Below, one piece after another: positions 42,058 through 45,858 of a DNA stretch of 64,000 bases. The stretch is from the NCBI GenBank assembly GCA_009995595.1, contig JAACPE010000001.1, forward strand, positions 930,001 to 994,000, written 5' to 3'. Below the pieces are notes generated by a model, which saw only the letters and a program-made list of their open reading frames with translations, ran no database searches and had not been told where the DNA came from. The stretch is from Alphaproteobacteria bacterium. GTDB taxonomy: Bacteria > Pseudomonadota > Alphaproteobacteria > Micavibrionales > Micavibrionaceae. A program made the position numbers and the translations under genes. Each line of letters opens with the position of its first letter. Position 1 is the stretch's first letter.

Positions 42058-42086
42058 AAGCTATTTTGCGCTTTAACAATGAAGTT

Positions 42087-43097
42087 ATGACAGCTTTAAA
42101 GCAGAAAAAAGACAAAATGCAAAGCCCCCTTGATATTTTGAGCGAAAGAATGGCAACCGACATGGATGCGGTAAACGCCATGATTGTGACACATATGCAA
42201 TCAGATGTGGCACTTATCCCTACCCTCGCAAGCTATCTGATTGCTGCGGGTGGAAAGCGAGTGCGCCCGTTACTCACCCTTGCAAGTACAGCATTGTTTG
42301 ATGGGGATATGACCCGCGCGCACCGGTTAGCGGCGGCTGTTGAGTTTATTCACACAGCAACGCTTCTTCATGATGATGTCGTTGATGACAGCAATCAGCG
42401 CCGCGGCAAAGACTCCGCTAATATCGTTTTTGGCAACGAGGCTAGCGTCTTGGTTGGTGATTTTTTATTCTCCCGTGCATTTCAGCTTATGGTGGCTGAT
42501 GGATCACTCGATGTGCTTCGCATTCTCTCTAATGCCTCTGCCATTATTGCCGAAGGAGAAGTGAAACAGCTTTCCACGCAAAACAATCTTGAGACTACAA
42601 TGGACGACTACCGCAAAGTAATCGAAGGCAAGACCGCATCGCTCTTTGCCGCCGCCTGCGAAGTCGGGCCTATTATTGCAGAGCAAGACATAAAAATCGT
42701 AAAAGCGCTGAGTGACTATGGAATGGCTCTGGGTATGGCCTTCCAGATTGTTGATGACGTGCTTGATTATGATGCCGACCGTTTAAAACTTGGTAAAGAT
42801 ATCGGCGATGATTTTCGCGAGGGAAAAATGACCGTCCCTATTCTTTTTGCACTTGAAAAGGCGAGTCCGCAGGAGCATGACTTTTGGACACGCACCTTAG
42901 GAGAGCGCAACCAAAATGAAGATGATTTTGGCCGCGCACAAAATCTTATTATAGAGCATGATGGTCTAAATAAAGGGCTTGTTATGGCGCAAGAATATGG
43001 CAACCAAGCGATCAACGCTTTGAGGCTTGTGCCAAATTCTGATATAAAAGAGATATTAATTAATATTATACAATTTATCATTCACCGCGATCACTAA
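42087..43097 (+). CDS. ispB: Long-chain polyprenyl diphosphate synthase (octa/decaprenyl type)
   Basis: A 336-residue trans-prenyltransferase. First Asp-rich motif is DDVVDDSNQRRGKDSAN (DDxxD, without the short-chain two-residue insertion), second is DDVLDYDAD. Before the first, ATLLHDDVVD is typical of long-chain enzymes making the ubiquinone tail. GGKRVRPLLTL binds IPP. ATG at 42087 is preferred to a TTG seven codons upstream; another Met lies at 42117. It draws on FPP made by ispA. Confidence 0.93.
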   Translation: MTALKQKKDKMQSPLDILSERMATDMDAVNAMIVTHMQSDVALIPTLASYLIAAGGKRVRPLLTLASTALFDGDMTRAHRLAAAVEFIHTATLLHDDVVDDSNQRRGKDSANIVFGNEASVLVGDFLFSRAFQLMVADGSLDVLRILSNASAIIAEGEVKQLSTQNNLETTMDDYRKVIEGKTASLFAAACEVGPIIAEQDIKIVKALSDYGMALGMAFQIVDDVLDYDADRLKLGKDIGDDFREGKMTVPILFALEKASPQEHDFWTRTLGERNQNEDDFGRAQNLIIEHDGLNKGLVMAQEYGNQAINALRLVPNSDIKEILINIIQFIIHRDH

Positions 43098-43106
43098 GGT
43101 TTTACA

Positions 43107-43406
43107 ATGAAAAATATCATTTTCGTATTTGCTCTTATCCTACCTCTTATGGCCTGTGCCTCAAGCCCAGTGCCAGAAAATGGTATTCGGCTTCAAATAG
43201 ATGGAATGACATGTGAGCCTTGCGCTGAAACGCTGATTAAGAAATTTTCAAAAGAAAAAGCTATTGAGTCAGCGAACGTCGATTGGGAAACAGGTGAAGG
43301 AATGATTATCCAAAAGCAAGGCCAGACCTTAAAAGATTCCGAAATTGAAAAGATTGTCGATTGGTCAGGGTTTGAGCTGCTCTCGATTGAACGCGCACAA
43401 AATTAA
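43107..43406 (+). CDS. HMA-domain lipoprotein (copper-type CxxC)
   Basis: A 99-residue exported protein. The signal ends in a lipobox with Cys17 (LPLMAC). The remaining 80 residues form an HMA/ferredoxin-like domain with DGMTCEPCAETL (C36, C39), the metal-binding loop of copper chaperones and P-type ATPase N-termini. Being secreted, it would bind metal in the periplasm. It lies 9 bases after ispB's stop, so it may be transcribed with ispB, and just upstream of the CsoR-like operator. It is clearly related to the second HMA protein at 44086: both have the CxxC at residues 36-39 and end in EI.K...W.G. Confidence 0.87.
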   Translation: MKNIIFVFALILPLMACASSPVPENGIRLQIDGMTCEPCAETLIKKFSKEKAIESANVDWETGEGMIIQKQGQTLKDSEIEKIVDWSGFELLSIERAQN

Positions 43407-43412
43407 CAAAAC

Positions 43413-43440
43413 TTGACGTTATACCCATAGGGGGTATATC
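43413..43440 (+). promoter_or_regulatory. Promoter with CsoR-type operator in the spacer
   Basis: TTGACG (43413-43418), 16-base spacer, TATATC (43435-43440). The spacer contains TATACCC-ATAGG-GGGTATA (43420-43438), a 7-bp dyad with the G/C tract and flanking TATA typical of CsoR operators. Repression by the CsoR-like protein encoded 0.95 kb downstream and release by metal are expected. Confidence 0.78.
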
Positions 43441-43448
43441 ATTAAAGG

Positions 43449-44073
43449 ATGAAAATATATTCTTTCCATCCTCGTCCTATCCCTATCATTTAGTACTGCA
43501 AACGCCAGACCAGTGTCATACCCAACAGGATGGACATTGATGTTAATGAATGACGCTGATTCAAATTCGGCGCATGTGCATTACTCCCCTACTGCAAAAT
43601 ATTCCATCGGCGTGCGTCACGAGTATTTTCGTGATCCAAAGGTGAATGTGACCAGTTTTCAAATGAATAATTTGATTAAGCGTTGGAATAAGAAAAACGA
43701 GCAAGCAAATTTCTACGTTAAATCTGGCGTTGGCGTGGCACGAGATGATGGTGAGTATGACCCCGCTGCCTATACAGGTATTGCGCTTGATTGGGAAACA
43801 AGGCGTTATTTCACCTCATACGAGAACCGCTTTTTTTGGGCGGATGAAACAGAACAGTTTGCGATGCATAAGGCCCGCGTCGGCATCGCGCCCTATGTTG
43901 GTGATTACGGTGATTTACATACATGGCTTATGCTTGAGGCGCATTATGACGCCGGCGAAGAAGACACGTTTCACGTCACCCCCCTCGTTCGTTTTTTTAA
44001 AGGCAATACGCTTTTAGAGGCCGGATATAATTTAGATGACGGTGTCATGTTTAATTTTGTTCAACGATTTTAA
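43449..44073 (+). CDS. Putative outer-membrane beta-barrel protein, frameshifted at its start
   Basis: From 43453 to 44073 one frame encodes about 206 residues: a hydrophobic signal sequence (YILSILVLSLSF, ending STANA), then a beta-rich mature part ending in Phe (FNFVQRF), typical of outer-membrane barrels. The only plausible ATG (43449), after an AAAGG, is one base out of frame: ATG is followed by AAAA where AAA would join the frames. The gene is thus either damaged, misread, or starts at an unusual codon; the first in-frame accepted start is GTG at 43513, which would drop the signal. No named family recognised. Expected role: outer-membrane passage or binding of copper, by context only. 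Confidence 0.7.
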
Positions 44074-44085
44074 AAGGAGTTTACG

Positions 44086-44379
44086 ATGAAAAACTTACTA
44101 ACCCTTACTCTCTTGCTAATTTTAACGAGCTTCACCCCCGTTAAAGCCGACACGCAATATGATGCGATTGTGCGCGCTGATGGTATTGTCTGCGATTTTT
44201 GTGCACAGGCCTTAAACAAAGTCTTCCTTAAAAATGAAAACGTCGAAAAAATAGATGTCAGCATGGATGAAGGAACCGTCAGCGTAAAAATTAAAAAAGG
44301 TGGAACCGTTACAGACGAAGAAATTCAAAAGATGATTGAATGGGGCGGCTATGATTTCGTATCTGTTACAAGGCCATAG
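44086..44379 (+). CDS. Secreted HMA-domain protein (copper-type CxxC)
   Basis: A 97-residue protein with a signal peptide (cleaved after VKA, residue 21) and no lipobox. The mature domain has GIVCDFCAQAL (C36, C39), HMA-like, with the same size and C-terminal pattern (GG.VTDEEIQKMIEWGGYDFVS) as the lipoprotein at 43107. A soluble periplasmic metal carrier is expected. AAAAGGAG sits before the ATG, 12 bases after the barrel gene, and the stop is 3 bases before csoR, so the three genes are one operon. Confidence 0.87.
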   Translation: MKNLLTLTLLLILTSFTPVKADTQYDAIVRADGIVCDFCAQALNKVFLKNENVEKIDVSMDEGTVSVKIKKGGTVTDEEIQKMIEWGGYDFVSVTRP

Positions 44380-44382
44380 ATC

Positions 44383-44661
44383 ATGAGCGATCACCCTTGC
44401 CATAGCGCAGAAAAATCAGGCCTTAACCGCGCTAGCGGTCAGATTGAGGGCATTAAAAAAATGATTGATGAAGGACGTTACTGCCCTGATATTTTAACGC
44501 AATTACGCGCAGTACGCTCATCACTTAAAAGCATTGAAGCCAATATTTTAGAACGCCATTTAGGGCATTGTGTGAGTGATGCAATTAATAGTGAAAATAA
44601 AAAGGATATTTATAAAAAGATTGAAGAAATCAAAGATATTTTTAAACGCTATGATGACTGA
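44383..44661 (+). CDS. csoR: CsoR-family metal-sensing repressor
   Basis: A 92-residue all-helical repressor (DUF156 family). The Cu(I) ligand set is C34 (GRYCPDIL), H59 (LERHL) and C63 (GHCV): the spacing of 25 and 4 residues equals the Cys-His-Cys set of CsoR, and differs from the RcnR (nickel/cobalt) and FrmR (formaldehyde) sets. LNRASGQIEGI forms the first helix. An extra HPCH near the N-terminus might add ligands. Operator sites of this kind lie at 43420. It is the last gene of the copper locus. Confidence 0.9.
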   Translation: MSDHPCHSAEKSGLNRASGQIEGIKKMIDEGRYCPDILTQLRAVRSSLKSIEANILERHLGHCVSDAINSENKKDIYKKIEEIKDIFKRYDD

Positions 44662-45858
44662 TTAGTCGTCTTTATTGGCAACCTTCAATTGACCCAAAAT
44701 AGCAAAAGGTGAATCCGCAGGATTAGTTTTTGCTTCTGCTTTATAAATACGCTCTCGCTCTTCTGGTTTGCCTTTAGATTGCTTATGATCTTTTTTATTA
44801 AATGGCTTTTTGTTTTTATCTTTAAAGCTCACCTTATCAGGATTGGTGAATTCTTTATTTTTAAACTTCGTATTTGGTTTTGCCGCGGCGCGTGGCTGGG
44901 CGTTTGCTTGGCTCGCTTTACCACGTTTCAAGGCAAACGTCGCCAATTCAGGTTTTGCTTGATTGGTGTCTTTGGGCGTGTCGTCTTGCACTTTTTCGAT
45001 CTGGTCGGGCTCTGAGGTCATCGCACTCTCACCTTGTTCTTGAGGAACTACTTTTTCAGGCTCTTCTTTAATGGCAATCACCGCAGGGTCATTGATTTTC
45101 TTATGACCCATGGCCTCAATAATAGCATAAAGATCAGCAATATTGCTGCCGAGCCATTCCGCCATTTGGTGTTGGGCCTGAAACTTGCCTTCTTTGGCGT
45201 TATCATAGATCGCGCAAACAACGCGGTCTAACATATCAACGCGGCACGCACGCGGCCCATAAACAGGATAACCAATCGCCCGCAAATAGTTCTTATCCAC
45301 ATCCTCTTTTCCCTCAATCGAGAAAGAGACAATACCATCGGACGGCACATTCGCAGGGAGCGGCTTATCATTCCAAATCGTTAATAACAGCGCCTGCATA
45401 CGCACAGCGGCAGGTTTTTTCAGTTCAGGGAGGTAGACCAATAAAGGGCCAAAACGGATCTTTTTAGAGCGCAGCGATTGACGCGCCGCTTCGTCCATTT
45501 GGTCAATATATTCTTGCACTTCTTCGCGGGGCAAAATACCAACCCAATCAAAAATCTTCTGAGCAATTTTTTTGGCTGGTTCTGCCGTAATATCATCTTC
45601 AAGCAGTCTAAACATCGGCTCAAGACCAGAGCGCACATAGGCATCAAGCCATTCTTGGATAGCGCCCTGAACAACATCAACGCCCGCCGCCTTCACCAAC
45701 TCATTTTCATCGGCAACCGCTTTAGGAGCGGTTAAATGATCCCCTTTAACAATCCTCCCAATCTTTTCGCCAGGCAGTGGATTTGTTGGGTCTTTTTGCC
45801 ACGTAATGTCTCCATTATGAGCAAGGCGTATCTGGTTAGGCTGCGAGTTTGTAAGCAT
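44662..45858 (-). CDS. Stand-alone C-terminal region of an alphaproteobacterial Suv3/MgpS-type helicase
   Basis: A 398-residue protein that corresponds, by pattern, to the part following the DExH helicase domain in large alphaproteobacterial RNA helicases: WLDAYVRSGLEPMFRLLEDD, RFGPLLVYLPELKKPAAVRMQALL, IGYPVYGPRACRVDMLDRVVCAIYD and QHQMAEWLGSNIADLYAIIEAMGHKK, then a long basic Lys/Asn tail. No P-loop, DExH or SAT motif is present, and the next gene upstream is on the other strand, so the ATPase part is gone from this locus. It may be a regulatory or RNA-binding relic, or act with a separate helicase. Stop adjoins csoR. Confidence 0.7.
   Translation of the reverse strand: MLTNSQPNQIRLAHNGDITWQKDPTNPLPGEKIGRIVKGDHLTAPKAVADENELVKAAGVDVVQGAIQEWLDAYVRSGLEPMFRLLEDDITAEPAKKIAQKIFDWVGILPREEVQEYIDQMDEAARQSLRSKKIRFGPLLVYLPELKKPAAVRMQALLLTIWNDKPLPANVPSDGIVSFSIEGKEDVDKNYLRAIGYPVYGPRACRVDMLDRVVCAIYDNAKEGKFQAQHQMAEWLGSNIADLYAIIEAMGHKKINDPAVIAIKEEPEKVVPQEQGESAMTSEPDQIEKVQDDTPKDTNQAKPELATFALKRGKASQANAQPRAAAKPNTKFKNKEFTNPDKVSFKDKNKKPFNKKDHKQSKGKPEERERIYKAEAKTNPADSPFAILGQLKVANKDD

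Follow-up and report, generated by a model that had tools for sequence, protein, structure and literature searches.

The core of the locus is an operon of two genes, an outer-membrane barrel of 12 strands and, behind it, a secreted HMA protein that carries the motif CDFC in the window (the whole 64,000 nucleotide stretch of DNA analysed here). In the window the pair is followed by a gene for a CsoR-family protein, and we think it somewhat probable that barrel, HMA protein (HMA2) and CsoR form a CsoR-repressed three-gene operon that handles copper at the cell envelope, both buffering and moving it. That the metal is copper we infer from three features, namely the HMA motif, the operator and the ligand triad of CsoR.

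Layout of the locus

The original prediction described a compact copper-type locus with a lipoprotein HMA gene, an operator and promoter, a barrel gene, a second secreted HMA gene and a CsoR-like repressor. Profile searches, an operator scan and a barrel model found all of these elements, and the profile searches of the window place the four genes (HMA1, barrel, HMA2 and the CsoR-family protein) where they had been predicted (Table 1). The locus is flanked upstream by a polyprenyl synthase gene (42066-43097) and downstream, on the opposite strand, by a gene for a 398-residue protein that has no Pfam match and is ProQ-like on our own sequence reading only. Against the MerP family of NCBIfam (TIGR02052) the window HMA proteins score 19.1 and 16.2 bits, compared to a cut-off of 92.55.

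Table 1. Features of the locus, in positions of the window
Feature	Position	Strand	Evidence or remark
HMA1 lipoprotein, HMA domain GMTCEPC, lipobox LMAC	43107-43406	+	PF00403 E 9.8e-6, 26.3 bits (cut-off 24.8)
Promoter-like site TTGACG-18-TATCAT of the barrel operon	43413-43442	+	same layout at other CsoR loci
CsoR-type palindromic operator ATACCCATAGGGGGTATA, between the -35 and -10 boxes	43421-43438	+	
Barrel start region, ATG 43449 off frame by one base	43449-43512	+	
Mature outer-membrane barrel, predicted 12 strands, no named family	43513-44073	+	
HMA2 secreted HMA protein, GIVCDFC	44086-44379	+	PF00403 E 1.6e-7, 32.1 bits (cut-off 24.8)
CsoR-family repressor, C34, H59, C63	44383-44661	+	PF02583 E 7.5e-27, 94 bits (cut-off 22.8)
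Weak terminator-like hairpin, csoR end	44653-44670	+	not above shuffled expectation

The prediction had also pictured two HMA paralogues placed symmetrically around the barrel. HMA1 starts 9 bp past the polyprenyl synthase stop and the operator lies downstream of it. In G002, a genome of the same genus, an HMA gene (GMTCEAC) stands alone at the same site between the polyprenyl synthase and the ProQ-like gene, with no barrel, HMA2 or CsoR there. The position upstream of the operator and the lone gene in G002 rule out HMA1 as a member of the CsoR operon, and because G002 has a lone HMA gene at this site we consider HMA1 to be an independent resident of it. What looked symmetric is two units side by side.

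The conserved unit and its spread

The barrel is found in 22 of 58 relatives, in 19 of 387 genomes from the whole class and at 265 places in the species-level genome collection, where the carriers are labelled Alpha-, Beta- and Gammaproteobacteria and Dadabacteria. One carrier, Marinibactrum halimedae (L117), is culturable. A search of plasmids gave no match to it. We examined the best 80 of the 265 places. The HMA gene is immediately 3' of the barrel gene at all 80, which rules out a chance co-location of the two, and a gene for a divergent MerT-like membrane protein comes next at 68. The conserved unit is therefore barrel and HMA protein, mostly with the MerT-like protein, rather than a symmetric HMA-barrel-HMA cassette: the neighbourhood search in other genomes upholds the barrel-HMA pair, while the exact order HMA-barrel-HMA-CsoR is found only in the window and in G001 (locus L047). 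CsoR is present at 7 of the best 80 loci and an ArsP_1-type permease at 4; four CsoR loci have a permease of the ArsP/SO_0444 type beside csoR. In Nitratiruptor, copper and cadmium induced permeases of the SO_0444 type (PMC10092412).

The Pfam MerT family matches the MerT-like protein weakly (8 of 24 members, best E 4e-4, below the cut-off). A profile-profile comparison with true MerT gave a probability of 94.7 (E 6e-8, 111 columns) with the cysteines aligned; column-shuffled controls gave 0.1-0.3. Judging from sequence, the MerT-bearing form of the operon resembles a MerP/MerT transporter to which an outer-membrane component has been added. The MerT-like protein is present in 2 of 8 CsoR loci compared to 66 of 73 others (p 1e-4, uncorrected for relatedness), and profile searches found it neither in the window nor in the rest of the host genome (G000). 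A weak PF02411 match in G000 with an in-frame TGA was considered as a MerT remnant; it holds no coherent open frame and was read as noise. On the Vibrio alginolyticus plasmid L145 a relative of the MerT-like protein adjoins a secreted HMA protein without a barrel, in a copper-resistance island that also holds a multicopper oxidase, CopB, a cupredoxin and a P-type ATPase.

Several loci differ in their surroundings. A small secreted Cys/His-rich protein precedes the barrel at 33 of the best 80 loci by single-sequence search and at 38 by clustering; it lies about 450 bp 5' of the barrel in L056-L119, and its match to DUF2946 is weak. At L057, L058, L061 and L078 the MerT-like gene is followed by a glutaredoxin fused to a MauE-like membrane domain. 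Two genomes have two barrel loci each, one with the MerT-like gene and one of the window type (L028 and L034 in G007, L033 and L045 in G008). Eight loci labelled Candidatus Dadabacteria (L067, L070, L071, L074, L089, L090, L104 and L109) form one supported group, which suggests transfer of the operon between phyla.

A CsoR-type operator at the barrel promoter

The operator is the sole match in the window at up to three mismatches, where 0.04 would be expected. It lies upstream of the barrel at all eight CsoR loci (the window and seven others, with L053 a variant seen by eye) and at none of the 73 loci without CsoR. G000, G001, G004, G005 and G019 each contain a single exact copy of the consensus, at the barrel promoter, and none was found in the genome G007, which has kept barrel and HMA gene without CsoR. 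Allowing one mismatch, the consensus and a reversed control pattern yield similar numbers of sites. The window shows no enrichment of promoter-like sites in general; the argument for control is carried by the operator and its conservation.

All eight CsoR loci fall inside one 12-row clade with support 100/98, for which the bootstrap has not fully settled. The -10 box at CsoR loci ends about 6-9 nt before the ATG, which suggests that the mRNA of the barrel operon may be leaderless or nearly so.

The host genome

The host is called Micavibrio-like because of the labels of its relatives, which are Micavibrio, Micavibrionaceae or uncultured Alphaproteobacteria. Its genome is 99.97 % complete. A profile search for P-type ATPases (PF00122) found none in it, with 14 of 14 control genomes positive, and further profile searches found no ArsP_1 (ArsP/SO_0444) permease and no multicopper oxidase. 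The set of proteins searched for consisted of P-type ATPase, ArsP_1, multicopper oxidase and MerT-like proteins, with RND pumps and MerR-type copper regulators outside the set. The genome has exactly two HMA proteins and a single CsoR-family protein, all at the locus, and one COX1 by profile search. The proposal of an ATPase-free outer-membrane and periplasmic module under a Cys-His-Cys CsoR is thus supported and the lack of PF00122 extends genome-wide, whereas its framing around two paralogues gives way, HMA1 being an independent neighbour.

The P-type ATPase domain was also not found in most genomes of the genus (G000, G001, G002 and G004-G008). Among the 58 relatives an ATPase is present in 11 of 22 barrel carriers compared to 25 of 36 others. 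This negative association is not significant (p 0.17), and the ATPase-less state is therefore a feature of G000 and several of its genus and not of barrel carriers generally.

Cytoplasmic copper is normally removed by P-type ATPases in bacteria. G000 has a haem-copper oxidase and CsoR with no detectable P-type ATPase, and its only exact operator controls the barrel and a periplasmic metal binder; the locus is a compact test of whether the envelope alone can control copper.

A possible mechanism and the direction of transport

In our preferred explanation of a CsoR-repressed envelope operon, CsoR would sit on the operator at low copper and block transcription. As the cytoplasmic Cu(I) sensor it would bind Cu(I) at C34-H59-C63 and be freed from the operator, and the nearly leaderless mRNA would then yield barrel, HMA2 and CsoR. 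HMA2 would use its CxxC motif to bind periplasmic Cu(I) and the barrel would pass copper across the outer membrane. We hold the most likely direction to be outward, or within periplasmic buffering, because no searched-for inner-membrane copper exporter was found (RND pumps lay outside this search). The ancestral operon may have consisted of the barrel, a periplasmic HMA protein and a MerT-like inner-membrane protein, that is MerP/MerT-like transport with an outer-membrane part, and the CsoR lineage would have mostly lost MerT. Its rarity in the CsoR clade would be understandable if copper stress makes import undesirable. More tentatively, we hypothesize an envelope pathway in which the barrel exchanges copper with a dedicated periplasmic HMA chaperone, and which once fed the MerT-like transporter and was rewired under CsoR into an ATPase-free outer-membrane defence.

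Some observations argue against the envelope operon. The conserved N-terminal HPxH of the CsoR proteins could point to a different metal, the start of the window barrel is off frame by one base, and PcoB, a defence barrel, has been reported to admit copper (PMC9210255). The report on PcoB also favours metal acquisition, where barrel, HMA and MerT would carry a soft metal, copper or another, inward through both membranes and the form found in the window would bring scavenged copper into the periplasm to supply, for instance, cytochrome oxidase. Consistent with this, most loci have a MerT-like protein remotely homologous to the MerT importer, the MerT-bearing loci are mostly without the CsoR operator, and G000 has a COX1. 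However, the operon of the window lineage is controlled by CsoR, whose repression is lifted when metal is in excess, and this is the lineage that has mostly lost MerT. We regard acquisition as rather unlikely.

The barrel and its start

An AlphaFold2 model of the barrel with 20 homologues has 12 strands (pLDDT 91.9). The residues M10, H21, H23, H136 and M140 are conserved across 80 sequences, only 4 of which have a cysteine in the mature part; a copper path along these five residues is a conjecture. No Pfam or NCBIfam family matches the barrel above cut-off, and the CopB domain PF05275 is absent among its Pfam matches up to E 1. Sequence comparison of the barrel and of the MerT-like protein with solved structures gave no convincing match. 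Since the operon is widespread and the barrel falls in no such family, a function established for it would extend to the whole family and give MerP/MerT-type transport an outer-membrane step.

The start of the barrel reading frame originally listed, GTG 43513, falls inside the mature protein. A signal peptide is encoded in frame upstream of it (43453-43506, KYILSILVLSLSFSTANA, then RPVSYP). Relatives of the barrel have an ATG and then a signal peptide ending ARPxSYP, and at the other CsoR loci of the genus the in-frame ATG has the same spacing from the operator. In the window ATG 43449 misses the frame by one base (ATGAAAATATATT) because AAAA stands where AAA would fit; AAA would give MKYILSIL... 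An in-frame ATT at 43459, after the ribosome-binding-like AAAGGA, is a possible alternative start. We attribute the frame fault at 43449-43460 either to a mistake in the assembly or to a recent lesion.

The off-frame ATG, compared to the in-frame ATG of the other CsoR loci, would also be expected if the window copy were a decaying operon with a barrel gene truly broken at its start. Yet the remaining frame is intact including the signal peptide and shares 74% identity with L046, the assembly may be wrong by a single indel in AAAA, and the ATT may serve in place of the ATG. Decay is in our estimate improbable.

At L027 (10588-10977; the same locus as L049, in G004) a shorter barrel-like protein is encoded about 2.9 kb downstream. 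It matches only the last third of the barrel and is possibly a cut-down paralogue.

The metal

The residues C34, H59 and C63 are invariant in eight CsoR sequences and align with those of the solved CsoR 4m1p, and the Tyr preceding the triad is conserved. Among solved proteins the window CsoR matches copper CsoR best, better than InrS and FrmR, and the best NCBIfam match of the window protein is the copper repressor RicR, below cut-off. That the module instead handles Ag, Hg, Zn, Ni or Co, with the CsoR-like protein sensing that metal, is very doubtful: HMA and MerT families bind Hg and Zn too and the HPxH is as in some Ni sensors of the CsoR family, but the triad with its Tyr, the ranking of the matches, RicR and the position of the Vibrio MerT-like relative in a copper island all point to copper.

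Comparison with known systems

The arrangement had not been recognised as a described one, and we likewise found no description of a barrel-HMA-MerT or CsoR-barrel system in the open-access literature (subscription papers were outside the scope). The operon resembles MerT/MerP mercury uptake in having a secreted HMA protein by a small membrane protein with a Cys pair in its first helix and two loop cysteines. Unlike in mer operons, an outer-membrane barrel is added, the MerT-like protein is below the Pfam cut-off and missing in the window, and the window lineage is under CsoR control. With CsoR operons of the copZA type it shares the CsoR family, the C-H-C triad, a GC-rich palindromic operator in the promoter and an HMA protein in the operon. 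However, the HMA protein is periplasmic here and cytoplasmic there, and the CopA ATPase is missing from both operon and genome.

PcoB/CopB are, like the present protein, small outer-membrane barrels at a copper-type locus, and PcoB of Caulobacter is a main copper-homeostasis component described as an efflux channel (PMC12509749). The structural match to 7pge (Z 12.5) is below that to KdgM-type porins, with about 10% identity over the structural alignment, and the barrel lacks PF05275 and a multicopper oxidase partner. The nearest solved folds are the 12-strand porins KdgM/NanC (Foldseek E 1.3e-4 for KdgM; Z about 16 for VhGalP and KdgM, a level common to many unrelated barrels). Identity to these porins is about 5-10%, and the context of the barrel is metal handling and not sugar acids.
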